Notes under the pieces: model-generated
Database searches by the model: none
The model's input: only the letters and a program-made list of their open reading frames with translations
What the model was told of the DNA's origin: nothing
Assembly: GCA_021849425.1 (NCBI GenBank)
Contig: JAJZSY010000002.1
Coordinates: 1-64,000 of the forward strand
Reading direction: 5' to 3'
Length of the DNA stretch: 64,000 nucleotides
Origin: Pseudomonadota bacterium
Lineage (GTDB): Bacteria > Pseudomonadota > Alphaproteobacteria > Acetobacterales > Acetobacteraceae
In this document: positions 56,158 through 64,000 of the stretch, piece after piece
How the letters are laid out: each line of letters starts with the position of its first letter
Numbering within the stretch: the first letter of the stretch is position 1
Made by a program: the position numbers and the translations under genes

Positions 56158-57792
56158 TCAGGCGCGGCCGAGACGCTCGGCGCCGCCGCCACGGGCGGGA
56201 GAAGCGGTCGGGTCTTCCTCGTCCTCGCCCAGATCGCCGACCAGCGTTTCCGTGGTCAGGATCAGCTTGGCGACCGAGGCGGCGTTGCGCAGCGCCGTGC
56301 AGGTGACGCGGACGGGATCGATGATGCCGGCATCATACATGTTCTGGAACGTGCCGATGGCGGCGTTGTAGCCGAAGCCGCCATTCACCGCCGAAACCTT
56401 GGCGATCACGTGGTCAGGGTCGCCGCCGGCATTGGTCACGATGCGCCAGAGCGGCCTTGTGAGGATGGAGCGGACAAGTTTCACCCCCTCCGCGACATCG
56501 CCGCTGACGCCGGCCAGCACCTCGTCGAGCACCGGGCCGATCTGCGCCAACGCGGTGCCGCCGCCGGCAACCACTCCCTCCTCGCTCGCGGCGCGCACGG
56601 CGGCGAGCGAATCCTCGATCAGCTGGATCGTGCGCTTCTGCTCGACCGGCGTCGCCCCGCCCGCATAGAGAATGGCGGTGCCGCCGGAAAGTTTCGCGAG
56701 GCGCTCGCGCAGCTTGTCCTGCTCGATGTTGGGTGGTGCCGCATCGTGCATGCGCTGGACCTGTGCGCGGCGCGCGGCGATCGCGGCCGGATCGCCGGCG
56801 CCGCCGATGATCGCGGTGTGCGTGGCACTGGTGCGTACCCGCTCGGCGCCGCCGAGATCAGCTTCGGTGACATCCTCGATCCGGCCGCCGAGATCGCGGG
56901 CGATGACGCGGCCGCCGGTGATGATGGCGATATCCTCCATCATCGCCTTGCGCCAGTTGCCGTATTCGGGCGGGTGCACGACGAGGTAGCGGCCCGGCCC
57001 GTCGCGCCCGAGCAGGCTGACGACGACCTCCGGCGCCACCTCCTCGGCGATCACGAGGAGCGGGCGGCCGGCCTCGGCGGCAAGCGCCCGCGCCGCATCG
57101 AGCGCATGGGGATCACGGATCTTGAGATCCGTCATCAGGATCAGCGGCCGTTCGAGCACGGCCTCCATCTTCTCCTGATCGGTCACCATGTGATGCGAGA
57201 TATAGCCGCGATCGAAGGACATGCCTTCAACGACGTCCAGCGTGGTTTCGGTGGTCACGCTGAAATCGGTGGTGATGACGCCCTCGGCGCCGACCCGCGC
57301 GAAGGCCTCGGCCACCAAGGCGCCGAGATGCGGCTCGGTCGCGGCGATGTTGGCCACCGCGGCCAGCATGCCGTTGCCGGAAGCGGGCCGGGCGGCGGCC
57401 TTGAGGGAGGAGGCCACGCGCTCGACCGCGAGATCGATCCCGCGGATGAGATCGACCGCGCGGGCGCCGCGCTCGCTGGCCTCGACGCCGGCCTGGACGA
57501 GCGCGTTGGCCAGCACGATCGCCGTGGTAGTGCCGTCTCCCGCCAGTTCGTTGGTCTGCATCGAGACCTCGCGGACCACCTGCGCGCCCATGTTCTCGAA
57601 CCGGTTCGGCAGCTCGATTTCCACCGCGATGCTGACGCCATCGCGCGTGACCATCGGCGTGCCGATCGGCCGGTCGATCATCGCGTTCATTCCCTTAGGC
57701 CCGAGCGTCGGCTCGACGGCGGCCGCGAGCCGGCCCACACCGCGGGCCAGCGCGCGACGCGCTTCGGAATTATGCAGAAGCAGCTTAGCCAT
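56158..57792 (-). CDS. GroEL-like chaperonin dedicated to the monooxygenase operon
   Basis: A 544-aa chaperonin, divergent from housekeeping GroEL. It keeps TLGPKGMNAMID, the ATP site AGDGTTTAIVLANAL and the late VAGGGTALAQ motif. It lacks the usual Gly-Gly-Met C-terminal repeats, ending instead in EEDPTASPARGGGAERLGRA. In Mycobacterium a GroEL homologue (MimG) in the same gene order is needed to fold the large hydroxylase subunit. There is no groES beside it. As the last gene of the operon it should share the sigma-54 promoter. Confidence 0.88.
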   Translation of the reverse strand: MAKLLLHNSEARRALARGVGRLAAAVEPTLGPKGMNAMIDRPIGTPMVTRDGVSIAVEIELPNRFENMGAQVVREVSMQTNELAGDGTTTAIVLANALVQAGVEASERGARAVDLIRGIDLAVERVASSLKAAARPASGNGMLAAVANIAATEPHLGALVAEAFARVGAEGVITTDFSVTTETTLDVVEGMSFDRGYISHHMVTDQEKMEAVLERPLILMTDLKIRDPHALDAARALAAEAGRPLLVIAEEVAPEVVVSLLGRDGPGRYLVVHPPEYGNWRKAMMEDIAIITGGRVIARDLGGRIEDVTEADLGGAERVRTSATHTAIIGGAGDPAAIAARRAQVQRMHDAAPPNIEQDKLRERLAKLSGGTAILYAGGATPVEQKRTIQLIEDSLAAVRAASEEGVVAGGGTALAQIGPVLDEVLAGVSGDVAEGVKLVRSILTRPLWRIVTNAGGDPDHVIAKVSAVNGGFGYNAAIGTFQNMYDAGIIDPVRVTCTALRNAASVAKLILTTETLVGDLGEDEEDPTASPARGGGAERLGRA

Positions 57793-57837
57793 TTTGTCTC
57801 CCTTCGGCCGAATGACCGGCGCGCTGCGTGGACCGGC

Positions 57838-58860
57838 CTATTCGGCGGCGACCGCGAGCGGCGAGGCCGCAAGCGCCGCCTTCTTCGCCGCGATATCGAT
57901 GCCGTAGAGCTTGGCTGCATTGAGGCCGAGGATCTTTTCCTTGATCGCCGGGGTGAGATCGATGCCGCGCTCCTGCTTCACATCCTCAGGCAGCTCGAAA
58001 TTCCAGAATTTCTCGACCAGCCAGCGCGGCGTCCAGATCGCGTAGTCGGAGCCGAACAGGATGCGGTCCTCGCCGAGCCAGAACAGCAACTCGCCCATGA
58101 TTTCGGCGAAGTAGCGCGGCCGGGAGTGGATGAAGGGGAGCACGACGGCGAGGCCGCCATAGACATTCGCTTCCTGCACCGCGATCCAGCAGAAATCGTC
58201 GATGCGGGGCTGGCCGCAATGCTCGACGACCCAGTTGAGATTGGGGAAGTCGGTCGCGGCGTAATCGACGTCGTGAACGTCGAAGGCGTCCTTGCTCAGC
58301 GGGATGATGGTCGGACCCTTGTGGACGTGCATGTTCCTGATGCCGAGCTTCTCGCACAGCTCGAAGCATTTGTAGGCCTCGGGATCGTTCAGCCGCCAGC
58401 CGCGAGAGGCGCCGTTCCATTCGGCGGTGTAGAGTTTCACGCCCTGGATATTATATGTTTCTTTCATGTAATGGATATATTCGAGCGCCTTCTCGCCATC
58501 CCGCGGGTCGAACGCGCCATTGATGATGAAGCGTTCGGGATAGCGGGCGGCGACGTCGGCATTGCGTTCGATCGTGTTGAAACCGGTCTTGTAGAAATCC
58601 TTGAGGTAGGTGGACTGCACGATCGCGACATCGTCGGGGCCGTCAATGAAGAGATCGCGATAGAGATCATCGGCGCTGTATTTCTCGAACTTCTCCTTCG
58701 GCCACAATTTGTCGGCCGGGCTCAGCGCGTTGTGATAGGCGAAGAAGCACTCGATGAACTGCTTGCCGTGAATGTTGCTCTGGTTCGCCGGGCTGCCATC
58801 CCAGAAATGGGTGTGGCCATCGACGATGAAGATTTCCTTGCCCTCGGGCGTTACGAACAT
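57838..58860 (-). CDS. Amidohydrolase-family protein of the propane monooxygenase operon (MimE-like)
   Basis: A 340-aa amidohydrolase_2 protein. Metal-ligand segments seen are VDGHTHFWDG, MHVHKGPT, VEHCGQPRIDD and LFGSDYAIWTP. ATG 58860 is preceded by GGAGGAAA, which decides against a longer start. Homologues sit between coupling protein and chaperonin in actinobacterial propane monooxygenase operons; their exact role is unproven. The C-terminus is Ala-rich. Confidence 0.85.
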   Translation of the reverse strand: MFVTPEGKEIFIVDGHTHFWDGSPANQSNIHGKQFIECFFAYHNALSPADKLWPKEKFEKYSADDLYRDLFIDGPDDVAIVQSTYLKDFYKTGFNTIERNADVAARYPERFIINGAFDPRDGEKALEYIHYMKETYNIQGVKLYTAEWNGASRGWRLNDPEAYKCFELCEKLGIRNMHVHKGPTIIPLSKDAFDVHDVDYAATDFPNLNWVVEHCGQPRIDDFCWIAVQEANVYGGLAVVLPFIHSRPRYFAEIMGELLFWLGEDRILFGSDYAIWTPRWLVEKFWNFELPEDVKQERGIDLTPAIKEKILGLNAAKLYGIDIAAKKAALAASPLAVAAE

Positions 58861-58939
58861 GGTTTCCTCCACGTGTTGATTGCTTGCCGGTCGGCGCGCC
58901 ACGCGCGGGTTGCGCGCGGGCGCGCCGGAGTGCCGCGGT

Positions 58940-59308
58940 TCAGATGTATTCGAAGACGTCGTCCATATTGCCGAACAGGATCACGGTGTTGTCGTCGACG
59001 CGGACCATGCGGCCGTAATGCGTCGAGGTGTTCACCTCGAAGATCTCGGCCGTCATGTCACGGCCGAGATACTCGCCGATCTCGTCCATCTTGAAGATCA
59101 GCTTGCCGTGGCCGTCGATGCGGATCAGGGCGGGCTGGTAGGTGACGGTGACGCCGGGCTTGTCGCTCATGAATTCGGCGATGGCGCGGGCCTCGACCGA
59201 ATCGTTCATCGTCACGCCGCATTGATCCGAGATCGTCTGCTCGAAGGTGATATCCTTCATCTGCTTGAAGATGGTCGAATGGGTCGCGTCGCGTGCTGCT
59301 GTTGACAT
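58940..59308 (-). CDS. prmD: Propane monooxygenase coupling (regulatory) protein
   Basis: A 122-aa MmoB/DmpM-family effector without cofactors. Recognised by CGVTMNDSVEARAIAEFMSD and the long polar C-terminal half ending MDDVFEYI. It binds the hydroxylase and tunes electron transfer and oxygen use. It lies 23 nt after prmC and 79 nt before the amidohydrolase gene. Confidence 0.9.
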   Translation of the reverse strand: MSTAARDATHSTIFKQMKDITFEQTISDQCGVTMNDSVEARAIAEFMSDKPGVTVTYQPALIRIDGHGKLIFKMDEIGEYLGRDMTAEIFEVNTSTHYGRMVRVDDNTVILFGNMDDVFEYI

Positions 59309-59331
59309 GATGTTATCTCCTGTGCGGGGCG

Positions 59332-60387
59332 TCAGGCGAGACCGAGTTCGCCGAGGATCTTGCCGATGCGCTCCTGCGACTGCGCCCTGACATCCTGGAA
59401 CGAGACGGGTTTGGAATGGGGCATCGACCAGATCGGTTGCAGGCCGAGGGCCGCCTTGTCGGCGAGGGCGCGGTGTTTTTCGAGCCAGCCATGGAGGATG
59501 GCGCGGTTCTCGCCGCCGTGTTTCTCGTCGTTGGCAAGGAGGTAGATGAGGTCGATCGTGTTCGCGAGGTTGCGTTCGTAATCTGCCTCGGCGGCGGAGA
59601 TCACCGGGGGCGTGACGAAATCGTTGTTGGCGGCGGCGACCTGCATCAGGAAGCCGGAGCGGAACAGCTCGCCCACCAGCGGCTCGAAGACGATGTTGAT
59701 CGCGAAATACTGTTCGAGATAGTCGCTCGACCCCATGATCGTCTCGATCGCCTCGCGCGTGCCCTGCCAGATCGGGTCCTCAAGCCAGGCGACCTTGCCG
59801 AGCTCGTCGTTCCAGCCGGGAATGTCCATGCCGATTTCGGCGAGGTAGAGCGTGATATCCTGCGCGAGGCGCATCTTGTAGGAGGAATTGGTCAGCGTCG
59901 CGTTGTTGATCATCTGCGTGTAGCCGTAGCGCTGCGCCTGCATCAGCGAGGTGCCGAGGCCGAATTCGGCGTGTTTCCAGGCGCCGAGATGGGCTTGCAG
60001 GATGCGTTGCCAGACCTTGTCGAAATTCGCCGGGGCGCCGGCGCGGCGGGCATTGGCGATGACGCTCTGCACCATCGTCTCGATGCGGGACTGGCGCTGG
60101 TAGTGGGTGCGTTCCCATTCCTGGTCCGGCGCGCGGAAGGCGTGCCAGTTGCTGCTTTTCAGCGCCGTGGCGTCCTTCACATAGGCGCCCTTGCCGTTCG
60201 CGAAGGAGATGATCCAGTTCTGGATCAGGTAGCGCTCGGGATCGGGCTGGACATCGACGGTGACGTCTTCGTAATGGGTTGCGCGCTTGCCGCGCGGCTC
60301 GAAATAACGGTAGCGGCGGCTGTCGGAATCCGCGAAAATCGCCGCTCCCGCGGCACCCGATCCGACTGAACTCGACAAGGCTGGCAT
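59332..60387 (-). CDS. prmC: Propane monooxygenase hydroxylase small (beta) subunit
   Basis: A 351-aa ferritin-fold subunit of a binuclear-iron monooxygenase. It shows the family's conserved FEPRGKRATHYEDVTVDVQ start, EWERTHYQRQSRIE and NIVFEPLVGELFRS segments. Beta subunits lack the di-iron ligands and serve structure. It follows the reductase gene by 42 nt. Confidence 0.9.
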   Translation of the reverse strand: MPALSSSVGSGAAGAAIFADSDSRRYRYFEPRGKRATHYEDVTVDVQPDPERYLIQNWIISFANGKGAYVKDATALKSSNWHAFRAPDQEWERTHYQRQSRIETMVQSVIANARRAGAPANFDKVWQRILQAHLGAWKHAEFGLGTSLMQAQRYGYTQMINNATLTNSSYKMRLAQDITLYLAEIGMDIPGWNDELGKVAWLEDPIWQGTREAIETIMGSSDYLEQYFAINIVFEPLVGELFRSGFLMQVAAANNDFVTPPVISAAEADYERNLANTIDLIYLLANDEKHGGENRAILHGWLEKHRALADKAALGLQPIWSMPHSKPVSFQDVRAQSQERIGKILGELGLA

Positions 60388-60429
60388 GGTGTCTCTCCCT
60401 GGGTTTCGGTTTGCCCGTGCGGCGCGCGA

Positions 60430-61521
60430 TCAGTGACCGGCGGGAACGGGAACGCTCGAGGATGTGGTGAACCTGTCAAAGAAGACGCGCTCGTTCTCGA
60501 AGCCGTTCAGGAACAGCACCGGTTGCAGCGCGTCGATCATGGGGGGTGGGCCGCAGGCATAGACGTCGCCCTCGCCATCGATACCGAGGGCCTTCAGCCT
60601 CGCATCGACGCATTCATGGACGAAGCCGCGTTCGCCCTCCCAGCCGGCATCGCCGCCGGCGTGCGAGAGAACCGGAATGAATTCCAGCTCCGGGTAGCGA
60701 TCAGTGAGTTGCGCGATGCGATCGAGGTGGAAAAGATCCTCCCGCGTGCGCGCGCCATAGAAGAAATAGACCGGCCGGCTTTCGCCGCTGGCGAGATGAT
60801 CGTTCAGGATCGACCAGATCGGCGACATGCCGGAGCCGGCGCCGACGAGGATCAGCGGTCCGGTTCGTCCTTCCCGCCGGAAGCAGGTCCCATAGGGTCC
60901 GGTGAGGGAGACATCGGCGCCGATTCTGATTCCGCCGCTGTCGAGTTCGCCGGAGAATTTTCCTTCGGGGTATTTCTTGATGATGAAGGAGAGGCTTTTG
61001 GCTTGGTCCGGCGTATTTGCCATGGAAAACGAGCGCGTAATCGTCTCCCCTTTTTCCGTGGTGACGGTGATGTCGACATATTGTCCGGCCCAGAACTTGA
61101 TCGGGGAGTCGAGATCGATCGTGATTCCGCGAATGTCGTGCGTCAGCTTTGCAATCTCGGCGATCCGGCCGTTGAAGGTCCGCACCGCGATCGACCGCGC
61201 CAGCACTTCCTCGTCATAGTTGAGGAGTTCGACCTCCATGTCCGAATAGGCGATCGTGCGGCAGAGCAGGATATGGCCGCTTTCGCGCTCCATATCGTTC
61301 AGCGCGAAGGTCGAGTATTTCAGCATGTCGACCTCGCCATCCGTCAGGATGCACTTGCAGGCCGAGCACTGGCCCTCCTTGCAGCCATGCGGCAGGGCGA
61401 TGCCCTGGCGGAAGGCGGCGTTGAGCACCGTTTCGCCGTCCTCGACCTCGAACTCGACACCGACCGGCTCGAGCCTCACCGTATGCGTGCCACCCATCTG
61501 GCCCATCTCCCGAAAGTCCAT
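60430..61521 (-). CDS. prmB: Propane monooxygenase NADH reductase component
   Basis: A 363-aa reductase with an N-terminal plant-type [2Fe-2S] ferredoxin domain (GCKEGQCSACKCILTDGE), an FAD-binding part (RSFSMANTP) and an NADH site (GAGSGMSPIWSIL). It passes electrons from NADH to the di-iron hydroxylase. ATG 61521 with GGAG four bases upstream is used. It is 81 nt downstream of prmA. Confidence 0.92.
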   Translation of the reverse strand: MDFREMGQMGGTHTVRLEPVGVEFEVEDGETVLNAAFRQGIALPHGCKEGQCSACKCILTDGEVDMLKYSTFALNDMERESGHILLCRTIAYSDMEVELLNYDEEVLARSIAVRTFNGRIAEIAKLTHDIRGITIDLDSPIKFWAGQYVDITVTTEKGETITRSFSMANTPDQAKSLSFIIKKYPEGKFSGELDSGGIRIGADVSLTGPYGTCFRREGRTGPLILVGAGSGMSPIWSILNDHLASGESRPVYFFYGARTREDLFHLDRIAQLTDRYPELEFIPVLSHAGGDAGWEGERGFVHECVDARLKALGIDGEGDVYACGPPPMIDALQPVLFLNGFENERVFFDRFTTSSSVPVPAGH

Positions 61522-61602
61522 CACGCTCCGGCGGGGCGCCGGAGGTGTCGCGTTGAGAAGGAAGCGGGAGCCGGGGCAACGGCTCCCGCAAGGTCCGCCG
61601 GA

Positions 61603-63270
61603 TCAGTTGAACGGCGTGATCGTGAAGCCCGCGCGATATTCGGCGATATGCTTCGCGCGATCCTCCGGGCTCATCTCCCGCAGCAGGGTGAGCGGCGAGA
61701 GCAGGGTGTGGCCACGCACGTCATCGAGCGTCCACAGTTCGCTATCCTCGAAGCGCAGATGCGGCTGGGGCACCAGGGTCTTGCCATCGGAGCGGACGAA
61801 GTTCAGATCCTTGATCGCATCCGCGAGATCCCAGCCGTGATAGACCGTCTCCCACTCGCGCTTGCCGCTGAAGCGGCCCATCGCGGGGGTCGGGCGGCCC
61901 TGATACTCGTCGGCGAAGGCCTCGACCGCGGTCCAGCGATCGAGCTCGTGGGCGAAGGTGTGGAGCTTGCCGTCGATTTCGTCGACCACCATGTCCTCGC
62001 GGATCAGGCAGGGGACGAGGCAGCTCCAGCAGCGATGCGGATAGACGTAGCCGACCTCCTCATTGAAGGTGATGACCTTCTCGCCGCGATGGCTGAGCTT
62101 GTCGTACCATTTCCAGAAATCGCCGAACTTGGCGTACCAGCCTGGATATTTCTGCTCGAACCACTCGAAGTCGGCCTCGCGCTGGGCCTCGATGCGCCAG
62201 AAATTCACCGGCCAGCCGACAGCGAAGAACTGGGCGACGTGGTGGACGTAGAGCTTCTCGGTCAGGCGCTTCCAGGCGGCCTGGACATCGTCGTGGTGCA
62301 CCTTGATGCCGTATTTCTCAAGCGGCAGCATGTAGGTCCGGTAGTAATCCTCGAAGATCCAGCGGTGCCACATCTCCGCGTAGGATTCCTTCGACTTGTC
62401 GCGATTGGTGGTGCCGTATTCGATGAAGGTGCCGATCGCGGCATCGACGATCGCGTGGTTCTGCCAGAAGGCGTAGCGCAGGTCGCGCTCGAGCAGGAGA
62501 TGATTTTCCGGCTCCTTGAGGGCGGCCATCAGCATCGAGTGTCCGTTGCCGATATGCCGACTCTCGTCGGACTGCACCGAGAGGAAGACGGTCGGCAGCG
62601 CGTAGTCGCCGTTGCGGGCGGCCTCGGAGGGCATGGCAACGAACAGCGTGTTGGTGAAGGCGGTTTCAGCGACGACGGTGAGATACATGCAGGCGGCGGT
62701 CATCGTGTCGCCGGTGATGAAGCCTTCGCCGAACTGCCGGCCGATCGTGGTCGCATAGCATTTGCCGAAGGCTTCCTCGGTGATGTCGAAGCCCGCCGGA
62801 TCGATGTAGTTCTCCATGTACCATTTCTTGAGGTTCATCTGGATGGTCGAGTGACGGAATTCGTCGACCATCTGCATCGTGAACCCGGTGCGCAGGTCCT
62901 CGCCCGGCGCGAGGCGGGCGACCATCGCCATCGAACGCGCCGCGGAGATTTCCGGGAAGGGGATGATCGCGAGGAACAGCTTCATCCATTCGACCCAGCG
63001 CGGCTCGACATTGCGGAACATGTCGCCGCGCAGCGCCGCATCGAGCGCGCCATAGACGCGGTTGTCCTTCTCTTCCTGCATCGGGAAGTAGGAGCGCAGC
63101 ACCTGCTTCATCGGATCGCGCGGGGCCTTGGTGATCTTGTAGTCGGTCGGGTAGGTCATCGCCTCCTGGACATAGGTCGGATTCCACCCGAGATCGGAAA
63201 TCTTCCTGGTTGCCTCGCCCACGGATATGCCGCGCTGCGAGGTGATCTTGTTGAGCGTCAGGGACGTCAT
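61603..63270 (-). CDS. prmA: Propane/acetone-type monooxygenase hydroxylase large (alpha) subunit
   Basis: A 555-aa di-iron hydroxylase subunit. Iron-ligand motifs are VDEFRHSTIQ and QSDESRHIGNG (ExxH type). The N-terminal NPTYVQEAMTYPTDYKITKA and the MimA/PrmA-like length indicate the propane/acetone group rather than soluble methane or toluene enzymes. Known members hydroxylate propane to 2-propanol and some act on acetone or phenol, so the true substrate is open. ATG 63270 has GGAGG upstream. It heads the six-gene operon. Confidence 0.92.
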   Translation of the reverse strand: MTSLTLNKITSQRGISVGEATRKISDLGWNPTYVQEAMTYPTDYKITKAPRDPMKQVLRSYFPMQEEKDNRVYGALDAALRGDMFRNVEPRWVEWMKLFLAIIPFPEISAARSMAMVARLAPGEDLRTGFTMQMVDEFRHSTIQMNLKKWYMENYIDPAGFDITEEAFGKCYATTIGRQFGEGFITGDTMTAACMYLTVVAETAFTNTLFVAMPSEAARNGDYALPTVFLSVQSDESRHIGNGHSMLMAALKEPENHLLLERDLRYAFWQNHAIVDAAIGTFIEYGTTNRDKSKESYAEMWHRWIFEDYYRTYMLPLEKYGIKVHHDDVQAAWKRLTEKLYVHHVAQFFAVGWPVNFWRIEAQREADFEWFEQKYPGWYAKFGDFWKWYDKLSHRGEKVITFNEEVGYVYPHRCWSCLVPCLIREDMVVDEIDGKLHTFAHELDRWTAVEAFADEYQGRPTPAMGRFSGKREWETVYHGWDLADAIKDLNFVRSDGKTLVPQPHLRFEDSELWTLDDVRGHTLLSPLTLLREMSPEDRAKHIAEYRAGFTITPFN

Positions 63271-63522
63271 GTTTTCAAACCTCCACCTTGTTTGCGCCGC
63301 GGGTCCCGTGACCCGGGCGGAAAGCGGCTCAGGTGCCGCCGTGCGAGTTTCCGGATGGCCTGCGCCGCGTTGCGGGGCGTTGCCTGCCGGATCCCGGCAA
63401 AGGTCTTCGAACGATCCTGATCGGTGACAGCGCAGTGTCGCGCGAAGCCGATCCGGTTTCCTCCGTTCCTTCGTTCTTCTGGCACCGCGCCACGCGCGAT
63501 GATTTTCTTCTGGACAAATCAG

Positions 63523-63538
63523 AGCAAATCCCATGCCA
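63523..63538 (-). promoter_or_regulatory. Sigma-54 promoter of the propane monooxygenase operon
   Basis: On the minus strand TGGCATGGGATTTGCT matches the TGGCACG-N4-TTGCW consensus at all but one position, with the invariant GG and GC ten bases apart. Transcription would begin near 63511, leaving a leader of about 240 nt before prmA. Such promoters need an enhancer-binding activator; none is seen in the window. Confidence 0.8.
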
Positions 63539-63613
63539 AAAGGCCGGCGGGATGGTCATGCGCACGAACGCGGCGGATATCGGAAAGTGCCGACGCAATG
63601 CCGCAACGCACAA

Positions 63614-63656
63614 TGTAAAGGAAATTTACATCTGTAAATGACAAGTGTAATACTTG
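63614..63656. promoter_or_regulatory. Cluster of TGTAAA/TTTACA half-sites, candidate activator site
   Basis: TGTAAA (63614-63619), five bases, TTTACA (63625-63630), two bases, TGTAAA (63633-63638). The last two form the palindrome ATTTACATCTGTAAAT (63624-63639). CAAGTGTAATACTTG (63642-63656) is a further inverted repeat. They lie about 100-145 bp upstream of the predicted start, the normal enhancer distance for a sigma-54 activator. Confidence 0.6.
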
Positions 63657-63783
63657 GCATATTTCAAATATAGATGAATATCACTTCAAACAATCAAATT
63701 GACTTTCGCCCGCATGGGTGGCTAATTCTCGCCAAGCGACGATCGCCCAGCCGAGGCATGGCGATCGAGGCGAGGAGGCGCAG

Positions 63784-64000
63784 GTGCCCGACAAACAGCG
63801 GCCAGACATGGACCCGACATCTCCGGCGGCAGGCGGCGGAGACGTGACCGAGCAGCTGATCCGGCTGATGTCACGCGACCTGGTGTTCACCATGACCTTT
63901 CTCGGCGAAAGTCAGCACCGGATGCAGACGCATTTCGAGAGCTTCATCACCGCCTCGCTTGCCCGCGCCGGGATGAACCAGACCACCCACCCGATGATCC
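63784..64000 (+). CDS. Unrecognised protein divergent from prmA, 5' part only
   Basis: A GTG start with AGGAGG at 63773-63778 opens a frame with no stop before the window ends; the visible part is 72 codons. After a Pro/Gly-rich stretch of about 18 residues it becomes helical and amphipathic (TEQLIRLMSRDLVFTMTFLG, ESQHRMQTHFESFI). I do not recognise a family, and it does not look like the start of a sigma-54 activator. An ATG at 63808 is an alternative start. Its position suggests a role with the monooxygenase. Confidence 0.6.
   Translation, partial: MPDKQRPDMDPTSPAAGGGDVTEQLIRLMSRDLVFTMTFLGESQHRMQTHFESFITASLARAGMNQTTHPMI

Follow-up and report, generated by a model that had tools for sequence, protein, structure and literature searches.

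Enhancers of the NifA/NtrC type are palindromic sites of ~17 bp, located ~100 bp upstream of a -24/-12 promoter. Regulators that act with sigma-54 are already known for soluble di-iron monooxygenases (SDIMOs). BmoR of Thauera butanivorans has been described as activating the butane monooxygenase operon in a sigma-54-dependent manner in response to n-alkanols (PMC8784404). The propane monooxygenase cluster of Methylocella is written prmABCDGR (PMC6778391), where we read R as the regulator and G as the chaperonin, and mimABCD with mimR and groEL is described from mycobacteria (PMC8394569).

Here, we analyzed a window of 64,000 nucleotides (the whole stretch of DNA studied, C54:1-64000) from the 2,895,660-base draft genome G000 of an acid-loving bacterium, which carries an operon for a predicted gas-oxidising, propane-type enzyme on its minus strand. 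The gene set of a propane-type SDIMO is complete, with a prmA/mimA-like hydroxylase large subunit (61603-63270; PF02332), a reductase (60430-61524; Fer2, FAD_binding_6 and NAD_binding_1), a hydroxylase small subunit (59332-60387; PF02332), a MimD-like coupling/effector protein (58940-59308), which reached 109.4 bits and thus stays below the curated cut-off of 150 bits of the MimD model, and a GroEL-like chaperonin (56158-57792). An amidohydrolase (57838-58902; PF04909) is encoded between the latter two, and none of the NCBIfam models matched the prmA-like large subunit.

In terms of gene order, the excerpt on the Methylocella cluster has genes for this enzyme type with G and R behind them, comparable to the GroEL and regulator genes after prm in relatives of the window, and gives neither an enhancer nor a sigma-54 site for prm; R is part of that cluster whereas the candidate regulator gene of G000 is on another contig (PMC6778391). 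The BmoR/Pbmo system likewise combines a sigma-54-dependent activator with an SDIMO operon, yet with a gene set that differs from prm of G000; it is the precedent for the sensing and activation proposed below (PMC8784404). The mycobacterial mim system has the same enzyme type, a chaperonin and a dedicated regulator (PMC8394569). NifA/NtrC-type enhancers are similar in palindrome size and distance, whereas in G000 the palindrome TGTAA-N7-TTACA is embedded in an array of five half-sites. As for the mycobacterial counterpart, use of sigma-54 is not known from these organisms. We found no description of the 37-bp enhancer or of its activator in the open-licence papers searched; the enhancer and the candidate activator in trans represent the new content.

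A preliminary description had placed a sigma-54 promoter with GG-N10-GC layout in front of the monooxygenase operon. This layout is indeed present on the minus strand at 63538-63523, where the -24/-12 element TGGCATG-GGAT-TTGCT (TGGCATGGGATTTGCT) carries GG and GC with ten nucleotides in between, resembles TGGCAC-N5-TTGC and leads to a predicted start at ~63512. From the position of the -12 element and the start of prmA, an untranslated leader of ~240 nt (63271-63512, minus strand) can be predicted. Enhancer-bearing relatives also have the promoter ~255-322 nt upstream of prmA, and a site is located at 119-153 nt in six of nine loci that represent the other prm lineage within the family of the window.

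Searching the draft genome with the strict pattern TGGCAYRN4TTGCW resulted in four matches, compared to one for a reversed-pattern control. Besides the prm site, the matches are located at C23:153960, C33:75343 and C46:54926, all three within ~2 kb of PF00158 matches and hence of genes for enhancer-binding activators (bEBPs). The site at C23:153960 faces an apparent aldehyde dehydrogenase gene (named by eye) beside the bEBP gene, and those on C33 and C46 precede Asn/Ala-rich, secreted-looking proteins. The genome has one rpoN gene (PF04552 at C56:140257-140733, E 1.2e-64).

Upstream of the promoter, three half-sites had been noted ~100-127 bp from the start. We found all of them (TGTAAA 63614-63619, TTTACA 63625-63630 and TGTAAA 63633-63638), at ~102-126 bp from the predicted start near 63512, together with two more, TGTAA at 63646 and a degenerate TGACA at 63639 (both plus strand). 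Read on the minus strand, they form a predicted compound enhancer (UAS) of 37 bp (63650-63614) that ends 75 bp from the -24 element and has the order TTACA-N2-TGTCA-N-TTACA-N2-TGTAA-N7-TTACA, with TTACA at 63650-63646, TGTCA at 63643-63639, TTACA at 63637-63633, TGTAA at 63630-63626 and TTACA at 63618-63614. The block matches 24 of 25 fixed positions in G000, while the maximum among 1640 shuffles of upstream regions was 16. Shuffles served as null because stretches from real loci caught the true sites themselves, and that null was set aside.

The palindrome by itself is less telling. TGTAAAN{3,8}TTTACA occurs at one place in G000, as does its control, and TGTAAN7TTACA also at one place with none for the control; with one mismatch allowed, the control outnumbers the motif by nine places to three, which means that the palindrome alone is not improbable. 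We therefore dropped it as evidence in its own right and relied on the complete block together with its conservation and phasing.

To follow the block through relatives, the best 80 of 533 encoding stretches (the named relatives) were examined together with G000 and its congener G007, identified as Acidiphilium multivorum AIU301 by 8000 bases that match plasmid NC_015178.1 at 100 %. The block, counted from 20 of 25 fixed positions upwards, is present upstream of prmA in 57 of the 80 named relatives as well as in G000 and G007, both of which score 24 and share one degenerate half-site. In 58 of these 59 loci, a strict sigma-54 site lies between the block and prmA, and the remaining one, L093, has TGGCACGGCGCTTGCG in its place. 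Blastn and direct reading, used because a global MAFFT profile misaligned the region, show that G000 and G007 have retained the half-sites and the -24/-12 element, whereas the sequence that separates these elements has diverged. In the remaining 23 relatives, most of them Rhodobacteraceae and kin, the block is weaker or absent; the last three half-sites are partly kept with the same spacing in Rhodoblastus L057 (14 of 15 positions) and Limibaculum L032 (12 of 15).

The distance from the block to the -24 element is 51-53 bp in 11 loci, 72-75 bp in 43, 95-96 bp in three and 64 bp in one, and a 2-bp longer inner spacer in L027 and L025 brings their true distances to 62 and 73 bp. The resulting steps of ~52, 62, 73 and 95 bp fit whole helical turns. 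Phase coherence was 0.91 at a period of 10.75 bp, calculated over 61 values that include three matches 279 bp from the promoter with scores of 18-19, regarded as spurious, and it is to be read as a description and not as a probability because related loci are not independent. It is extremely unlikely that the -24/-12 match arose by chance and that prm uses another promoter, considering that there are only four strict sites in the whole genome and that 58 of 59 loci conserve the site with phased spacing. Conservation of this kind strongly supports the earlier assignment of a sigma-54 promoter with an upstream enhancer.

Inverted repeats in divergent intergenic regions are common operators, and the block is flanked by a divergent gene, which starts at 63718 on the plus strand and runs past the window end at 64000 (listed with 179 aa, although its true start is uncertain, and matched by no Pfam or NCBIfam model). 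The block could thus be the operator of an ordinary repressor or activator outside the sigma-54 class, positioned beside a real sigma-54 promoter and serving the divergent gene, a homologue of which is found divergently upstream of prmA in 68 of the 80 named relatives and in all 57 that bear the enhancer. In G000 and G007, a sigma-70-like TTGACT-N18-TAA box even faces this gene. This box is not general among enhancer-bearing loci, as no TTGAC..TA-type box occurs within 170 bp of the divergent gene in any of the 57 named ones. We consider an ordinary operator very unlikely, since the distance to the -24 element is phased, a bEBP homologue accompanies the block in the same 57 named genomes, and the palindrome differs where the recognition helix of the activator differs (see below for both). 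Sigma-54 control shared with the divergent gene was also considered and found to be unsupported, with a TGGCA-type site facing the gene in one of the 57 loci. On Aminobacter plasmid pAA02, further divergent genes include one for a WD40-repeat protein.

Returning to the block as an enhancer, the preliminary description had seen no enhancer-binding activator in the window and had proposed a genome-wide search. In agreement with this, all 12 PF00158 matches of G000 (nine strong and three weak) are outside C54:1-64000, and the search led to a strong candidate in trans, G000:C20:12632-14596. It encodes a GAF-AAA+-Fis bEBP (PF01590, PF00158, PF02954) of 655 aa from the start used, which carries a GAFTGA loop in the translated protein and ends in a helix-turn-helix (GNLSRAAQRLGISRPTLYRKLDQFGIRRGFV) that is nearly that of enhancer-bearing Rhizobiales. 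The C54 contig extends for 56 kb beyond the GroEL end of the operon and shows no PF00158 match there; judging from the coordinates, the operon and the C20 gene would be separated by at least ~68 kb if the two contigs joined end to end. By comparison, an activator gene is located near the GroEL end in G007, Labrys, one Mesorhizobium and Aminobacter aminovorans plasmid pAA02, whose record names it a sigma-54-dependent Fis family regulator.

Homologues of the C20 protein were detected downstream of prmA within the flank in 38 of the 80 loci, most of them truncated to C-terminal parts where the flank stops, and upstream of it in one (L078). A whole-genome search of the 33 enhancer-bearing genomes without a flank match recovered a homologue with 60-67 % identity in every case, 32 of them nearly full length and the one in G084 matched over 10-474 of 655 residues. 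Together with 24 enhancer-bearing loci with a match in the flank, this gives a homologue in all 57 enhancer-bearing named genomes. For the remaining eight of the 80 loci, none of which bears the enhancer, the search covered the flanks.

In a maximum-likelihood tree of 62 C-terminal bEBP parts, the C20 protein is placed inside the enhancer-positive clade (98/93) as sister to the prm-linked activator of G007 (100/99), and is thereby kin to the regulators at prm clusters (PrmR position). The tree comprised eight of the nine strong bEBPs of G000, the ninth (C56:118087-118584) being outside queries and tree, and was restricted to rows of at least 240 residues and to loci other than eight whose best match was an upstream bEBP. 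The C20 protein is apart from the other seven G000 proteins, which account for most of the long branches, and the prm-linked activators of enhancer-less members of the window's family form a separate group. Some observations are less favourable: besides the degenerate half-site of G000 and G007, the C20 protein and the G007 activator are only 76 % identical although their operons share 94.5 % of the DNA sequence, and G005 of the same genus has a C20 homologue of 43 % and no close PrmA, which counts against the link. The ~840 bp that precede the C20 gene, and likewise those before its orthologue in G007, contain no TGTAA/TTACA half-site, giving no sign of autoregulation through the motif. On the basis of sequence, the C20 protein is a strong candidate for the cognate activator of the prm enhancer. 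Promoter, enhancer and the related activator point to a propane (SDIMO) monooxygenase operon of the sigma-54/PrmR type whose activator has been separated from it.

The same promoter and enhancer could also be served by another cluster-type bEBP, G000:C18:24467-26368, which has a similar domain plan, stands beside an alcohol dehydrogenase and a paralogue of the amidohydrolase and might contribute, all the more as several congeners and family members carry its homologues and an alcohol dehydrogenase upstream of prm. We regard this as quite unlikely, because 39 of the 57 enhancer-bearing named loci are without a bEBP upstream of prmA (flank of up to 8 kb, shorter in four), the C18 helix-turn-helix reads SRNTIYRAI, and the protein is far from the enhancer-positive clade in the tree, on a long branch. 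Moreover, no TGTAA/TTACA palindrome occurs in the stretch that contains the divergent sigma-54-like site of C18 itself (L015:8522). The C18 module (L015:6468-11113) consists of the GAF-type bEBP, this divergent site, a zinc alcohol dehydrogenase, and, assigned by eye, the amidohydrolase paralogue and a DUF59-like gene; it is cut by the contig end, and genes of this kind border the prm operon in several relatives.

Taken together, the joint explanation with the C20 protein as activator is the best one and in our view highly probable. Site, enhancer, conservation, phasing, rpoN and the domains and kinship of the activator can be read directly, and from these we infer binding, RpoN dependence, looping and the inducer as follows. 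RNA polymerase with sigma-54 would transcribe the prm operon from 63538-63523, and the C20 protein, as orthologue of the regulator that ends the prm cluster in relatives, would bind the 37-bp enhancer at 63650-63614 from its gene in trans. Its N-terminal region is proposed to sense a pathway product, a small alcohol or ketone such as 2-propanol or acetone and probably not propane itself, whereupon the activator would contact the closed complex by DNA looping and drive open-complex formation. With a candidate activator, a defined enhancer and a predicted promoter at hand, the regulation of a widespread alphaproteobacterial gas/ketone monooxygenase becomes directly testable. Activator and enhancer could be developed into an alcohol/ketone biosensor pair, and operons of this type are relevant where short-chain alkanes and ketones are to be removed biologically.

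In congeners that carry the other prm lineage, both the recognition helix and the palindrome differ, the latter being TGTCG-N7-CGACA. The 71 loci with a PTLY helix score on average 9.51 of 10 for TGTAA-N7-TTACA and at least 9 in 61 cases, compared to 12 of 900 shuffles; the other ten loci, several Rhodobacteraceae among them, reach only 7-8, so that the site cannot be predicted from the helix alone. Eight loci with STLH, STLY or STMY, all from the window's own family, score 7 or less for this palindrome and 8-10 for TGTCG-N7-CGACA, with at least 9 in six of them (14 of 900 shuffles reach 9). For this count, three of the 33 genomes of the whole-genome search gave no locus and were excluded, L155 and L156 were left out, and L151 and L154 were paired with L150 and L153 of the same genomes. 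As TGTCG-N7-CGACA was chosen after inspecting the sequences of those loci, and as the loci compared are related by descent and one event may account for the switch, the match of helix and palindrome is a strong hint and not a test. The TGTAA/TGTCG switch nevertheless offers a natural test of enhancer choice by Fis-type activators.

With regard to its origin, PrmA of the window shares 99 % identity with its G007 counterpart and up to 95 % with Rhizobiales proteins (Labrys), but only 80-81 % with those of five other members of the genus (G003, G006 and G010-G012), which suggests a Rhizobiales-like source of this operon lineage. A wider reading, which we put forward tentatively and at somewhat less than even likelihood, is that two lineages of one operon within one genus use orthogonal activator/enhancer pairs: the frame TGT-N11-ACA would be kept, and the inner AA or CG would switch with the Fis helix SRPTLYRKL or SRSTLHRRL. 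The site of the first lineage would have grown into a five-half-site array able to seat more than one activator dimer, and operon and activator would have arrived together from the Rhizobiales-like source and been separated later, with the match kept in trans. Between G000 and G007, the 94.5 % DNA identity spans the operon (window 56158-63512 against L144:9531-16870), and the flank and the activator region are ~78-80 % identical. The boundaries lie near the promoter and at the groEL stop, which suggests that the operon alone was exchanged or transferred.
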